Of a DNA stretch of 14,828 nt, positions 4,624 through 12,418 are shown one piece after another (within the stretch, counting starts at the first letter, position 1; every line of letters begins with the position of its first letter). This DNA comes from Cyclobacteriaceae bacterium (GTDB lineage Bacteria > Bacteroidota > Bacteroidia > Cytophagales > Cyclobacteriaceae). The notes below the pieces were generated by a model. It was not told the origin of the DNA and ran no database searches. It saw only the letters and a list, made by a program, of their open reading frames with translations. The stretch is taken from NCBI GenBank assembly GCA_026994125.1, contig JALWRJ010000382.1, forward strand, positions 1 to 14,828. The letters run 5' to 3'. A program made the translations under genes and the position numbers.

Positions 4624-4697
4624 TCCTCCTTAGCTCAGTTGGTTAGAGCATCTGACTGTTAATCAGAGGGTCCTTGGTTCGAGCCCAAGAGGAGGAG
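4624..4697 (+). tRNA. tRNA-Asn (anticodon GUU)
   Basis: A complete 74-base cloverleaf. The 7-bp acceptor stem is TCCTCCT (4624-4630) with AGGAGGA (4690-4696) and discriminator G at 4697. The D-arm is GCTC/GAGC with AGTTGG in the loop, the anticodon stem is TCTGA/TCAGA around loop CTGTTAA with GTT at 4658-4660, and the T-arm is CTTGG-TTCGAGC-CCAAG. CCA is not encoded. The 111-bp repeats begin inside its 3' acceptor strand. Confidence 0.98.
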
Positions 4698-4702
4698 CTT
4701 TT

Positions 4703-4732
4703 AAACCTCAGTTGCCTAACTGAGGTTTTTTT
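4703..4732 (+). terminator. Intrinsic terminator, repeat unit 1 (ends tRNA-Asn)
   Basis: An 11-bp stem (4703-4713 with 4718-4728) with loop GCCT runs into a seven-T tract, six bases past the mature tRNA end. It is the expected terminator of the tRNA transcript. Confidence 0.9.
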
Positions 4733-4813
4733 ATGGGTTGTTGTTTCCAGTGAAGCACAGCCAATACCAGCAAGCCCAAGAGCCATGCCATAGGCAGGCA
4801 GGGAGGAGCTTTT

Positions 4814-4843
4814 AAACCTCAGTTGCCTAACTGAGGTTTTTTT
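4814..4843 (+). terminator. Intrinsic terminator, repeat unit 2
   Basis: Identical in sequence to the terminator of unit 1, one repeat period downstream. Read-through from the tRNA would meet it second. Confidence 0.85.
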
Positions 4844-4924
4844 ATGGGTTGTTGTTTCCAGTGAAGCACAGCCAATACCAGCAAGCCCAAGAGCCATGCC
4901 ATAGGCAGGCAGCGAGGAGTTTTT

Positions 4925-4954
4925 AAACCTCAGTTGCCTTACTGAGGTTTTTTT
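4925..4954 (+). terminator. Intrinsic terminator, repeat unit 3
   Basis: Same hairpin as units 1 and 2 with one change (T at 4940) that opens the top base pair and leaves a 10-bp stem and the full T tract. Confidence 0.8.
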
Positions 4955-5097
4955 ATGGGTTGTTGTTTCCAGTGAAGCACAGCCAATACCAGCAAGCCCA
5001 AGAGCCATGCCATAGGCAGGCAGAGTGGAGCTTTTAAACCTCGGTTGTTTATGAGATAGCCAAAATGGTTATATTAGCATTATTAACAACTTATACC

Positions 5098-8263: not shown

Positions 8264-9355
8264 TTATTCATTCATTATTCTTTCTTGCCTGGCAATGGAA
8301 TTTTGGTGTATTATTTCGTAAATAGACTTTACAAAATCCGGGTGAAGGTTTTCCTCCTCGCCCTTCGAAGCCCTATCATTTAAAATATTTTCGTAGCGTC
8401 CTACTTGCAAGATAGTAACATTGTTCTCTTTTTTAGACTCGCCAATTTCATCTACCAGCGCCATTCGCTTGCCCAAAAGTTTAATTAGTTCATCATCTAC
8501 TTTATCAATTTGGGCACGTAACTCTTGTAACGAAGCCACAAATTCATCGTTGGCAGACTCGGCTCTACGCCATACGATGTTATCCAAAATAGCCGAAAGC
8601 TTTTGGGGTGTTACCTGCTGTTTGGCATCGCTGAGGGCCTTATCGGGGTTAATGTGAGTTTCAATCATAAGCCCTTCCATTTGTAAATCAAAAGCTTTTT
8701 GTGCTACCGGTTCAATTAAGTTGCGCTTACCACCTATGTGGCTGGGGTCGCAAATAATGGGCAAGGCAGGCAGCAAGCGTTTTAGTTCGATGGGCAGTTT
8801 CCATTTGGGGTCGTTGCGGTATTGCGATTCGCTCATGGGTGAAAACCCCCGGTGAATGGCACCCAGTTTGGTAATGCCGGCTTGGTTAATTCGCTCCAAT
8901 GCACCTATCCAAAGTTGCAAATCGGGATTGATGGGATTTTTAACAAACACAGGCACATCATAGCCGGACAAAGCATCGGCTATTTCCTGTACCGAAAAGG
9001 GGTTTACGGTAGTGCGGGCTCCAATCCAGAGGATATCAACTCCGGCTTCGATAGCCTGATGCACATGTTCGGCCTTGGCTACTTCGGTAGCTATTTTTAG
9101 TTTCGTATTTTGTTTTACTTTTTGTAGCCACGGCAGGCCTTTGGCGCCAACGCCTTCAAAAGTGCCGGGGCGTGTACGAGGTTTCCACAAACCTGCCCGA
9201 TACACCATAGCCCGGTGGTCGTGTTGTACTTGTTGTGCTGTTTGGAGTACTTGTTCTTCGGTTTCGGCACTGCATGGCCCGGCTACTAATAAAGGCAGTT
9301 CTCTGGTTTCGGGGAACCACTGCTCCATGGGGTGAATGTTTAAGGTTATGTTCAT
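8264..9355 (-). CDS. Bifunctional DAHP synthase / chorismate mutase
   Basis: Fusion enzyme of 363 residues. The N-terminal domain (about 1-262) is a type I beta DAHP synthase that joins phosphoenolpyruvate and erythrose-4-phosphate. It has the metal-ligand Cys28 in VAGPCSAE, the KPRTRPGTFEG phosphate loop (58-68), and CDPSHIGGKR (202-211). The C-terminal domain (about 272-363) is an AroQ-type chorismate mutase, with Arg280, Arg297, Lys308 or Lys309, Glu322 and Gln351 in the places expected of active-site residues. It makes prephenate, the substrate of TyrA and PheA encoded upstream in the same operon. It is the last gene of the operon, 29 bases after tyrA. In this enzyme type the mutase domain often confers chorismate/prephenate feedback on the synthase; that is family knowledge, not shown here. 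Confidence 0.95.
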   Translation of the reverse strand: MNITLNIHPMEQWFPETRELPLLVAGPCSAETEEQVLQTAQQVQHDHRAMVYRAGLWKPRTRPGTFEGVGAKGLPWLQKVKQNTKLKIATEVAKAEHVHQAIEAGVDILWIGARTTVNPFSVQEIADALSGYDVPVFVKNPINPDLQLWIGALERINQAGITKLGAIHRGFSPMSESQYRNDPKWKLPIELKRLLPALPIICDPSHIGGKRNLIEPVAQKAFDLQMEGLMIETHINPDKALSDAKQQVTPQKLSAILDNIVWRRAESANDEFVASLQELRAQIDKVDDELIKLLGKRMALVDEIGESKKENNVTILQVGRYENILNDRASKGEEENLHPDFVKSIYEIIHQNSIARQERIMNE

Positions 9356-9379: not shown

Positions 9380-9420
9380 GGGAATTAGTTATTGGTTATC
9401 GGGAATTGGTTATTGGGGTT
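9380..9420. repeat. Imperfect 21-bp direct repeat at the tyrA 3' end
   Basis: Two adjacent copies of GGGAATTrGTTATTGG (9380 and 9401) span the end of tyrA and the start of the spacer. The last residues of TyrA, NQFPITNN, are encoded by them. Confidence 0.75.
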
Positions 9421-10287
9421 TGGGTTTTTATCATTAAGTACTTTTCTAATTCTGTTTGTTTGGTGCATGGCTTCTCTTAGTGCTTCTTCGTTCTTATTTT
9501 TTATCATTGCTTTATATTTTTCTAAATTGCTAATATAAGCCGATAGCACATCGATTATATTATCGGCATTCTCGGTAAAAATAGGCGCCCACATAGCAGG
9601 CGAGCTTTTAGCCAGGCGCACCGTGCTTTCAAAACCACTACCGGCCATATCAAAAATAGTGGTTTCGCTGGGCTCTACCTCTAACACGGTTTGGCCAAGG
9701 GTAAACGAACTAATATGCGACAAGTGCGACACATAAGCAATATGCCGGTCGTGGTCGTGGCTATCCATAAATTTTGGCCGCATACCTAAGTGGTCAGTTA
9801 GTGCCAACACCTTTTCCAAAGCCCCTGTGGATGAGCGTTGTTTGTCGCAAATAATATTTACCTTATTGGTAAACAAATCGCTAAAGGCAGCTTCGGGGCC
9901 AGTATTTTCGGTGCCTGCAATAGGGTGGCAAGCTACATAGGCAGCCCTGTTTTTATGGTTTGCCACTGCCTCAGCTATATTGGCCTTGGTAGAGCCCACA
10001 TCCAACACCACTTGCTTATTACCAAGCGCATCAAGCACAAGTGGCAACTGCTTTTTAGTGGCATCTACCGGAATGGCCAACACAATTACATTGGCTTGTT
10101 TTAAAACCCGTGCCATAGCAACTACTTTATCTACTATGCCTAACTCGAGTGCTTTTTGGGCGTGCAATGAGGATGCATCAGTGCCTATAACAGTAGCGGT
10201 AAACCCCGATTGTTTAAGTTTTAGCGCCATGGAGCCTCCTATAAGACCCAACCCTACGATACCAACGATATTTCCTTTGCTTTCCAT
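9385..10287 (-). CDS. tyrA: Prephenate dehydrogenase
   Basis: NAD-dependent oxidative decarboxylation of prephenate to 4-hydroxyphenylpyruvate, the tyrosine branch. The 300-residue protein has the Rossmann motif GLGLIGGS (12-19), then DVGSTK (96-101), HPIAGTE (121-127) with the active-site His121, and SHLSHISS (187-194), all characteristic of TyrA. The helical dimerisation domain follows to about residue 285. The final 13 residues (NPNPNNQFPITNN) are low-complexity and come from a short DNA repeat, so they look like a recent C-terminal extension. The ATG lies inside the end of the aminotransferase gene (34-base overlap), suggesting translational coupling. No regulatory ACT domain is present, so control of tyrosine synthesis may rest on the operon's attenuator and on other enzymes. 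Confidence 0.95.
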   Translation of the reverse strand: MESKGNIVGIVGLGLIGGSMALKLKQSGFTATVIGTDASSLHAQKALELGIVDKVVAMARVLKQANVIVLAIPVDATKKQLPLVLDALGNKQVVLDVGSTKANIAEAVANHKNRAAYVACHPIAGTENTGPEAAFSDLFTNKVNIICDKQRSSTGALEKVLALTDHLGMRPKFMDSHDHDRHIAYVSHLSHISSFTLGQTVLEVEPSETTIFDMAGSGFESTVRLAKSSPAMWAPIFTENADNIIDVLSAYISNLEKYKAMIKNKNEEALREAMHQTNRIRKVLNDKNPNPNNQFPITNN

Positions 10288-11435
10288 TGTAAAATTCGAT
10301 TGATAGCTAAATTAAAATCCTGCTCGGTAGAGCAAAGTGATAACCGGATAAAGCGATTGCCATTGGAACCAAACACTTCGCCCGGAGCTAAAAAAATATG
10401 TGTTTTATGTAAAATTTCATCAATAAATGTTCGTACTGTCTGGATATGTGAAGGTATTTTAGCCCATAAAAACATACCTACCTGATGTGGTTTAACCATA
10501 CAGCCAAGATGTGCCAACAACTCTAGCGCCACTTTTTTACGCTGTACATACACACTATTGCGCTGGTTATGCCATGCTTGTGGTAAGCTAAGTGCTGATG
10601 CAGCCGCCTTTTGAACAGGCAAAAACATACCTGAATCCACATTGCTTTTAGCTTGCAAAACAGCATTGATGTATTGCCTGTGGCCGGCCACCATACCTAC
10701 GCGCCAACCGGCCATGTTAAAACTTTTACTTAGCGAATTAAGCTCCAGCACATGCTCTTTGCTATCGTCTTGGTTTAAAATAGAACGGGGCGAATTATTT
10801 AGCACCAGGCTATAAGGGTTATCGTTTATAAGTAGGATATTATGCTTTTTAGCAAATGCCACCAGCTTAGCAAACAGCTTATTGGAGGCATTGGCTCCTG
10901 TTGGCATGTTGGGGTAATTTACCCACATTAATTTAACACCGCTAAGGTCTTGATTTTCAAGGGCTTCAACATCGGGTTGCCAGTGCTGCTCTTCCAGTAA
11001 ATCGTACTCCATTACTTGTGCGCCCACCACCTTGGAGATAGCAGCATAGGCCGGATACCCCGGATTGGGCACCAATACCTTATCGCCCGGGTTTAAAAAA
11101 GCCAACGAAATATACATAATACCTTCCTTAGAGCCTAATAGTGGCAATATTTCGGAGTCGGTATTTAAAGACACCTGATAGGTGTTGGCATAAAATTTTT
11201 GCATGGCCTCTCTTAGTTCCTGACCGGAACGATAGGGTTGGTATGCATGGTTTCGTTCATCCATAGCTGCATTTACCAAAGCCTTAATGGTAGTGGTATC
11301 GGGAGGTAAGTCGGGTGAACCAATGCCCAGGTTAAGCACTTTTTTACCTTGGGCACGCATCTGTTCTATTTCCTGTAACTTAACTGAAAAGTAATATTCT
11401 TTTACTGCTTTAAATCTATCTGCTTTCTCAATCAT
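10254..11435 (-). CDS. PLP-dependent class I/II aminotransferase, probably aromatic
   Basis: A 393-residue fold-type I aminotransferase. Visible parts: GIGSPDLPP substrate loop (38-46), NPGYPAY (124-130), YPNMPTG (174-180), Asp205 and Tyr208 in NDNPYS, the PLP-binding Lys237 in NSLSKSFNMAGWR, and the carboxylate-binding Arg364 in RFIRLSL. By position between pheA and tyrA it very likely transaminates phenylpyruvate and 4-hydroxyphenylpyruvate to Phe and Tyr with glutamate. By sequence it also resembles LL-diaminopimelate aminotransferase-like enzymes, so the substrate is inferred. The Asn that usually precedes Pro-Thr-Gly and contacts PLP is Met177 here. The start overlaps the pheA stop by four bases (ATGA), and the end overlaps tyrA by 34 bases. 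Confidence 0.92.
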   Translation of the reverse strand: MIEKADRFKAVKEYYFSVKLQEIEQMRAQGKKVLNLGIGSPDLPPDTTTIKALVNAAMDERNHAYQPYRSGQELREAMQKFYANTYQVSLNTDSEILPLLGSKEGIMYISLAFLNPGDKVLVPNPGYPAYAAISKVVGAQVMEYDLLEEQHWQPDVEALENQDLSGVKLMWVNYPNMPTGANASNKLFAKLVAFAKKHNILLINDNPYSLVLNNSPRSILNQDDSKEHVLELNSLSKSFNMAGWRVGMVAGHRQYINAVLQAKSNVDSGMFLPVQKAAASALSLPQAWHNQRNSVYVQRKKVALELLAHLGCMVKPHQVGMFLWAKIPSHIQTVRTFIDEILHKTHIFLAPGEVFGSNGNRFIRLSLCSTEQDFNLAINRILQWKAKEISLVS

Positions 11436-12277
11436 TTTAGTATGGGTTTGTTTCCTTGGCAGTAGGTGCCTAAAATTTTTATATGGTTACAGCATTGGGC
11501 AAGTTCTTTTACTACTGAATGCAGTGTTTCAACCTTGTTAAAGATTACATCCAAGTGGATGGCGTACTCGTAAGGGTGACCAATAATGGGTACCGATTGG
11601 ATTTTGGTAAGATTTAAGCCCTGGCCACCAATAATAGTCAATGCCCCTGCCAAGGCAGCCGGAGCATGTGGTAATATTAAACGCAACGAGGCTTTATTGG
11701 CCTCCAAAGCAGGCTCGGCTTTGGCTGCTATGGCTAAAAACCTGGTGTAATTTTTTTTATTAGTTTCGATTGAAGGTGCCAAAATTTTTAAACCATAGGT
11801 TTTGGCAGCCAGACTACTGGCTATGGCCGCAATACCCTTCAACTGTTTTTTGGCTATCAAGCGGGCACTTGCGGCTGTATCATCGGCCTCGGTTACCCGC
11901 CATTGCGGGTAGTTATCTAAAAATTGTCCGCACTGGCTCAGGGCTATTGGGTGCGATATTACCTGTTGGATGTTTTCGAGGGTTTCGCCCGGCATGGCCA
12001 TTAATTGCATTTGGATGCGCAAATATTCCTCGCCTATGATGTGTAAATTATACTCTTCGAGCAACCCATAGTTAGGTAGCAAGCTACCTGCCAAGGTGTT
12101 TTCGATGGCCATCATTCCATAATTTACCTTCCCTTGGGCTACGGCTTGTGACATACCTCTAAAATCTCTAAACTCGGCCAGTTCAATTTTATGATTACCA
12201 AAGTATTGGCGGGCAGCTACATCGTGAAAAGCAGCTTTTACACCTTGTATTCCTATTTTAAGTTTCCTTGTGTTCAT
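11432..12277 (-). CDS. pheA: Prephenate dehydratase
   Basis: Converts prephenate to phenylpyruvate, the phenylalanine branch. The 281-residue product has two periplasmic-binding-like lobes with IQGVKAAFHDVAA (10-22), AIENTLAGSL (57-66), and the catalytic Thr178-Arg179-Phe180 in NYTRFLAI. An ACT domain (about 195-278) follows, with GALTIIGGQGLNLTKIQS. ACT domains of PheA normally bind Phe through GALV and ESRP; here the second motif reads QSVP, as I recall for other Bacteroidota. It is monofunctional, the mutase being fused to DAHP synthase at the other end of the operon. It is the first structural gene, preceded by a leader peptide and terminator that probably control the whole operon. Confidence 0.95.
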   Translation of the reverse strand: MNTRKLKIGIQGVKAAFHDVAARQYFGNHKIELAEFRDFRGMSQAVAQGKVNYGMMAIENTLAGSLLPNYGLLEEYNLHIIGEEYLRIQMQLMAMPGETLENIQQVISHPIALSQCGQFLDNYPQWRVTEADDTAASARLIAKKQLKGIAAIASSLAAKTYGLKILAPSIETNKKNYTRFLAIAAKAEPALEANKASLRLILPHAPAALAGALTIIGGQGLNLTKIQSVPIIGHPYEYAIHLDVIFNKVETLHSVVKELAQCCNHIKILGTYCQGNKPILK

Positions 12278-12287
12278 TTTTATTCAT

Positions 12288-12317
12288 AAAAAAAGCCCCG
12301 GTATGTACCGAGGCTTT
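12288..12317 (-). terminator. Attenuator terminator in front of pheA
   Basis: In the minus-strand RNA a 12-bp stem (12306-12317 with 12292-12303, one G-U pair, two-base loop) is followed at once by seven U's (12288-12294). It ends only about ten bases before the pheA ATG and lies 26 bases after the leader-peptide stop codon. A terminator between promoter and first gene is the mark of conditional read-through. Confidence 0.93.
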
Positions 12318-12362
12318 AGATCTATATAGTTTTTTTACATATACTATCTCTTTAACCCCGGT
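12307..12362 (-). promoter_or_regulatory. Antiterminator pairing of the Phe/Tyr attenuator
   Basis: On the minus strand ACCGGGGTT (12362-12354), inside the last codons of the leader ORF, can pair over nine bases (two G-U) with AGCCTCGGT (12315-12307), the 5' arm of the terminator. The two structures exclude each other. The first segment repeats ACCGGGG of the terminator 3' arm exactly, and just before it CTAAAGC repeats the entry to the terminator 5' arm. A ribosome stalled on codons 11-14 would leave it free; one at the stop codon would cover it. Confidence 0.7.
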
Positions 12363-12418
12363 GCTTTAGCCCAGAAGTAAAAAAAGAAATAGTTAAAATA
12401 TGTAGTCGTTTTCATCAT
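12344..12418 (-). CDS. Phe/Tyr-rich leader peptide of the pheA operon
   Basis: A 24-codon ORF starting ATG ATG and ending TAG. Residues 7-16 read YFNYFFFYFW: five Phe, three Tyr and one Trp in ten codons, preceded by MMKTTT and followed by AKAPGLKR. The composition matches the products of the operon downstream. Slow charging of tRNA-Phe or tRNA-Tyr would stall the ribosome here, free the segment encoding APGL to form the antiterminator, and allow transcription of pheA and the genes after it. The stop codon is 26 bases from the terminator stem. There is no Shine-Dalgarno sequence, as elsewhere in this window. A second in-frame ATG follows the first directly, so the start could be 12415. It is seen clearly in sequence; its regulatory role is inference from geometry. 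Confidence 0.85.
   Translation of the reverse strand: MMKTTTYFNYFFFYFWAKAPGLKR

Follow-up and report, generated by a model that had tools for sequence, protein, structure and literature searches.

The closest described counterpart of the element reported here is the pheL-pheA leader of E. coli (RF01859, Phe_leader), with which it shares a leader codon run, an antiterminator and a terminator, followed by pheA. The E. coli leader reads Phe only, whereas the leader described below mixes Phe and Tyr codons, and the operon behind it, unlike pheL-pheA, includes tyrA and a DAHP synthase gene. The use of one leader for more than one amino acid is shared with thrL and ilvL of enteric bacteria, which sense other amino acids (thrL is a dual sensor and ilvL likewise reads multiple amino acids). 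Comparative surveys have reportedly been made by Vitreschak (2004) and Lopatovskaya (2010). The class Bacteroidia is common in guts and seas, and our literature searches found only brief mentions of leader-peptide attenuation in it. In Flavobacterium psychrophilum, a transcriptome study found strong clues to leader-peptide attenuation before amino-acid operons, together with structured elements in the 5' regions of pheA and hisG within the Flavobacteriaceae (PMC9723704). Its pheA element concerns the same gene and the same phylum as the switch described here and rests on transcript mapping; the main-text section of that report gives neither leader sequences nor an antiterminator analysis, and the extent given there is limited to the Flavobacteriaceae. 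A map of Bacteroides thetaiotaomicron describes 5' UTR ORFs that resemble leader peptides (PMC7366714). A 26-genome survey describes the uORFC-13-1 motif before aroF of Acholeplasma, a uORF that, as at our locus, lies ahead of a DAHP synthase gene and might act on a neighboring terminator; phylum and gene order differ from ours (PMC8632094). Thus, the remark in a first-pass annotation of our locus that such elements are little described in this phylum was right only in part, and the switch is not new in kind, given the leader-peptide clues and the structured pheA element already reported from Flavobacterium and the Flavobacteriaceae. As far as our searches reach, what is new is the extent of the switch, the ribosome ruler built into it and the tandem attenuators found in 17 relatives.

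The window analyzed here, a stretch of 14,828 nucleotides, comes from a draft genome in 602 contigs. MAGs of Cyclobacteriaceae are its nearest named relatives (best PheA segment 76-77% identical). The minus strand of the window carries a tightly packed run of four genes, in which pheA begins with an ATG at 12277 and overlaps the aminotransferase gene by 4 nt and a DAHP synthase-chorismate mutase gene comes last; downstream of the run, the next long ORF points the opposite way, toward it. By profile matches, the four genes look like those listed here, and among them only the prephenate dehydrogenase passes the curated cut-off of its model:

11432..12277, minus strand: pheA, prephenate dehydratase without a chorismate mutase domain (NF008865, E 5.6e-55, below the curated cut-off)
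10254..11435, minus strand: aminotransferase, DapL/AspC-like (NF006756, E 5.7e-112, below the cut-off)
9385..10287, minus strand: tyrA, prephenate dehydrogenase (NF006307, E 2.6e-105, above the cut-off)
8264..9355, minus strand: DAHP synthase-chorismate mutase fusion (NF006421, E 5e-51, and several chorismate mutase models, all below their cut-offs)

Directly upstream of pheA lie the elements of the proposed switch:

12344..12418, minus strand: leader ORF of 24 codons plus TAG, by direct reading, with similar leaders in relatives
12418-12416 and 12346-12344, minus strand: leader start ATG and stop TAG, by direct reading
12415-12413, minus strand: alternative second start ATG of the leader
12371..12400, minus strand: control codons YFNYFFFYFW, leader codons 7-16, by direct reading
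12336..12404, minus strand: protector (1:2) hairpin, 12404-12369 with 12364-12336, from the MFE fold
12354..12362, minus strand: antiterminator 5' arm, within the last leader codons (p 0.02 against shuffles)
12307..12315, minus strand: antiterminator 3' arm, lying within the terminator 5' arm
12292..12317, minus strand: intrinsic terminator hairpin, 11 pairs with a loop of 4
12288..12294, minus strand: U tract of 7 U, by direct reading

Direct reading of the minus strand gives the leader peptide as MMKTTTYFNYFFFYFWAKAPGLKR (24 aa), with codons 7-16 (12400-12371) being TAT TTT AAC TAT TTC TTT TTT TAC TTC TGG, which encode YFNYFFFYFW as first annotated. The terminator was likewise correctly described as ending in seven U, ten bases before pheA, except that its stem (12317-12307 with 12302-12292, -16.3 kcal/mol) has 11 pairs, one of them G.U, instead of the 12 first counted. 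The nine-base alternative pairing proposed earlier is present as 12362-12354 with 12315-12307, where two of the 9 pairs are G.U. The earlier anatomy omitted the protector hairpin, which we add from the MFE fold; it spans 12404 to 12336, forms between the control codons and the antiterminator strand as in a four-segment attenuator, and encloses that strand. Overall, the 160 nt from 12281 to 12440 fold at -40.3 kcal/mol, whereas shuffles average -26.5 (sd 3.6) and 0/200 are as good (z -3.85). The best Rfam match is RF01859 Phe_leader, at full length and on the right strand (E 1.4e-4), but its 34.7 bits fall below the gathering score of 55, so by Rfam's rule the element is not a member of that family. 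Since the next match is a human snoRNA at E 9e-4, the Phe_leader E-value means little, and we treat the match as weak evidence; among 13 related loci, no Rfam family matched at gathering.

On both strands of the window, a single site has 9 or more aromatic residues in 10 codons, and that site is the pheA leader. The same threshold returned 37 sites (36 distinct, as L034 repeats L003) in 2.93 Mb strand-bases of fetched loci, a scan from which L111-L140 were left out because they had been chosen for Phe/Tyr codon runs, and every one of the 37 is a leader before pheA when matched to our leader lists. Because such runs are so rare in the window and the fetched loci, the leader in the window is not a chance occurrence. 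A codon pattern of five consecutive TWY, tried on the window's own genome, proved too unspecific (188 matches against 144 in the reversed control).

With a probability of about 0.92, we read the pheA switch as classical ribosome-mediated transcription attenuation in which one leader senses both charged tRNA-Phe and charged tRNA-Tyr. The window has a leader ORF with control codons, a terminator that is intrinsic by its form and an antiterminator that excludes the terminator; that a stall at the control codons frees the antiterminator strand, and that a ribosome at the stop codon covers it, is read from the geometry. A ribosome's front edge commonly lies ~9 nt beyond the codon in its A site. On the usual footprint, a ribosome with codon 14 in the A site would reach ~12367 and one at the leader stop codon would cover ~12361-12334, in keeping with the geometry first proposed. 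When tRNA-Phe and tRNA-Tyr are both amply charged, the ribosome would proceed to the leader stop codon and mask the antiterminator strand (12362-12354), the terminator (12317-12292) would then form, and transcription would end ahead of pheA. If either charged tRNA is scarce, the ribosome should halt in the Phe/Tyr run with its front edge just short of the antiterminator strand, which would be free to pair with the terminator 5' arm and let RNA polymerase enter the pheA-aminotransferase-tyrA-DAHP synthase/chorismate mutase genes. In the absence of translation, the protector hairpin would sequester the antiterminator strand and the terminator would form. What the sequences show directly are the elements, their conservation, their spacing and their linkage to the operon; the response to Phe and Tyr supply, and the sufficiency of either amino acid alone, we infer. 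Classical attenuation is well supported by the comparison with relatives, and the earlier interpretation is supported in substance. If the mechanism works, then the switch would offer a sensor from which Phe and Tyr supply can be read, and transcription and translation in Bacteroidia, outside the usual model phyla, would be coupled closely enough for a leader ribosome to decide termination.

The leader and terminator are conserved far beyond the window. Of 107 upstream regions of pheA, in which L032 repeats L002 and L034 repeats L003, 62 contain a short ORF with 7 or more aromatic residues in 12 codons, whereas shuffles gave 0.7 and the reverse strand 3; a threshold of at least 8 retained 50, compared with 0.2 and 0, respectively. 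The 105 distinct upstreams comprise 67 with a leader, 79 with a terminator-like hairpin (some of which fall in coding sequence) and 65 with both. We then counted 192 distinct loci, having dropped L004, L061 and L073 for less than 100 nt of upstream sequence and L032 and L034 as repeats. Class-level loci are the 146 for which the tool gave no placement outside the class of the window; named loci, which have no printed kinship, were counted as class-level by title, and L036, labelled Oligoflexia and without a switch, was excluded. A leader with a terminator precedes pheA in 109/146 class-level loci, the window's own included; the reverse strands of these loci yielded none, and five rounds of shuffling yielded 0.0 per set; 87/146 have a leader score of at least 8 with a terminator, and 37/146 lack the switch. 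By source, the switch was found in 16/29 loci from the family search, 51/75 named loci and 42/42 from the phylum search. Outside the class, it occurs in 6/45 loci (L141, L142, L143, L144, L149 and L215, with a weak leader in L144). These six have PheA proteins scoring at least 200 bits against the window's PheA, while the other 39 score at most 188 bits; since the carriers are the only ones with a window-like PheA, the switch follows one PheA lineage. This suggests either that the operon moved together with its regulator or that these bins are misplaced, and the spread along the PheA lineage is possibly a matter of operon transfer. The switch also follows the pheA operon itself: a DAHP synthase-chorismate mutase gene lies downstream in 36/37 loci with the switch and 2/22 without it, counting named loci with >5.5 kb downstream, L036 included, and setting aside 17 shorter loci. 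Where the switch is absent, pheA often follows closely on another gene: an ORF of 100 codons or more on the same strand ends within 120 nt of pheA in 18/38 loci without the switch and 0/114 with it (a count that includes L036 and five outside-class loci).

The conserved codons also bear on which amino acids are read. In an alignment of 8 sequences from the window and near relatives, the aromatic codons exchange Phe for Tyr, and once Trp, keep T or C in the third position and stay aromatic, except that the final (Trp) codon is Arg in L031 and L002, the two nearest relatives. The aromatic residues in 97 single leaders comprise 479 F, 324 Y and 41 W (844 in total). The interchange of Phe and Tyr codons supports the sensing of both by one leader, as had been proposed, whereas the suggestion that Trp might be sensed as well is not supported for the window's leader, given the Arg at its Trp codon in the nearest relatives and the scarcity of W.

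The competing pairing, like the aromatic codons, was found to be conserved in relatives. Tested against dinucleotide shuffles, the antiterminator reached p≤0.05 in 62/76 leader-terminator pairs (64 loci) and failed in 14; against mononucleotide shuffles, it did so in 100/133 pairs (115 loci) and failed in 33. Its position is more telling still. In 89 of 129 attenuators offering at least 30 nt of choice, against an expected 19.2, the antiterminator starts 6-11 nt past the last aromatic codon; the mode is 9. A ribosome whose A site holds the last control codon should have its front edge at this distance. The standard deviation of the antiterminator start is 3.6 nt relative to the last aromatic codon (shuffles 13.6) and 9.9 relative to the stop codon (shuffles 14.9), and a ribosome at the stop codon would mask at least half of the antiterminator arm in 110/133 pairs. 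The same script applied to E. coli K-12 placed the antiterminator at +6 for pheL (p 0.008), compared with the mode of +9 given above, and at +5 for thrL (p 0.002); trpL (+13, p 0.112) and hisL (p 0.257) were not significant, so the test misses real attenuators. In an alignment of 8 sequences (A1), the terminator is paired in 98.9% of cells with 4/11 pairs changed on both sides, and 0/500 shuffles reach its percentage paired or its covariation score. The antiterminator is paired in 87.3% of cells, well above slid versions of itself, while 37/500 shuffles reach its percentage and 126/500 its covariation score. Of the co-variation that was to be looked for in aligned pheA upstreams, the conservation of leader, antiterminator and terminator is present and the terminator covaries; the covariation of the antiterminator does not stand out clearly from shuffles. 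In the same alignment, 84.1% of cells in the protector hairpin are paired (1/500 shuffles as high); in the wider set, a protector-type pairing reached p≤0.05 in only 31/76 leader-terminator pairs. It is present in the window and its near relatives and not generally supported.

Three other explanations of these elements were weighed. The terminator might be a constitutive stop that dampens the operon, with the aromatic ORF a by-product of T-rich sequence; TTT is indeed the commonest codon of the clusters (429/1128 aromatic codons), and no leader was detected in 14/79 upstreams that have a terminator-like hairpin. Yet relatives keep T or C in third positions while Tyr replaces Phe, and shuffles of the same composition yield no leader-terminator units, both of which argue against a compositional by-product, and an antiterminator arm at a fixed distance from the last control codon would have no role under a constitutive stop. 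We regard this explanation as very improbable.

Still less credit is due to the two remaining explanations, which we rate alike. One is an antiterminator that binds a tRNA or a protein, of the T-box or RNA-binding-protein type, beside which the short ORF would be incidental. T-boxes do serve some aromatic operons of Firmicutes, but the window has no T-box match at the gathering threshold, none is found among 42 weak matches in the region, and the ORF shows conservation at the peptide level and determines the spacing. The other is that the leader ORF acts on pheA translation, by reinitiation or exposure of the start, instead of on transcription, which the ten bases between U tract and pheA in the window would allow and which accords with a report that leader ORFs near genes may aid reinitiation (PMC4833913). 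Against this stand a hairpin followed by 7 U, an intrinsic terminator by form, and a relative (L016) in which 157 nt separate the hairpin end from pheA. We retain ribosome-mediated attenuation as the reading of the switch.

In some relatives, the switch is doubled. The script reported two leader-terminator units in series upstream of pheA in 18/192 loci, of which 17 remain after removal of L074, where the second ORF overlaps the first terminator:

upstream of pheA, tandem loci: L045, L047, L052, L053, L054, L063, L070, L071, L079, L082, L086, L093, L101, L108, L148, L152 and L248

Their titles include Bacteroides sp., Bacteroidales, Marinilabiliales, Marinifilaceae, Ancylomarina, a Saprospirales MAG, a Bacteroidota MAG and three further genomes; the window itself has one leader-terminator unit and no tandem. 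The second leader starts 6-34 nt past the first terminator in 16/17 loci, the exception being L086 under the script's choice of start, and judging by this spacing both units probably lie on one transcript. With L074 included, the antiterminator reached p≤0.05 in 17/18 first and 11/18 second units, and leaders containing Trp make up 13/18 second units compared with 3/18 first units, an excess confined to few clades upon which we build no conclusion. A FastTree phylogeny of 132 PheA proteins, which omits L208 and later loci because only their first ~20 residues were fetched, places the tandem loci in several separate positions with 7 changes between single and tandem; the number of origins is put no more closely than "several". 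The mgtCBR operon of Salmonella also has two leader ORFs in its 5' region, but it senses ATP and proline and its stem-loops are unlike intrinsic terminators (PMC3641672), whereas in the tandem relatives Phe/Tyr codons are read in both units, with a separate terminator-like hairpin in each. We found no description of tandem same-signal attenuators in open papers, with most subscription journals lying outside the search. As each terminator has to be passed, read-through probabilities would multiply and the operon would respond more steeply. We lean toward the broader view that classical attenuation is a standing control of aromatic synthesis in the class Bacteroidia, that the pheA switch has been doubled in several lineages with the same Phe/Tyr codons, multiplying read-through and steepening the starvation response, and that the narrow spacing implies a leader ribosome close behind RNA polymerase. 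If so, then doubled same-signal attenuators would constitute a natural multiplication of gain within one RNA.

Similar leaders were also observed before other operons in relatives. Runs of His codons (e.g. LHHHHHN) occur in short ORFs before hisG in L170, L171, L173, L175, L178, L179 and L182; a terminator accompanies the hisG leaders in 5/16 loci, and the antiterminator reached p≤0.05 in 4/5, three of them at +6 nt. The trpE leaders (L184-L201) have 2-3 Trp codons and a terminator in 14/18 loci, several with a CTGTTC loop, and an antiterminator at p≤0.05 in 0/14, which is perhaps the same kind of leader with another pairing scheme. Short ORFs rich in Ile, Leu and Val (e.g. SIVVNTVSVVVVVSDH) precede ilvD in 5/18 loci (L272, L276, L280, L282 and L283), as a raw count. 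Elsewhere in the window, a 111-bp unit is repeated 3.2 times with a 97% match at 4691-5047, beginning within the last bases of tRNA-Asn (4624-4698), and each unit contains an inverted repeat with a T run behind it.
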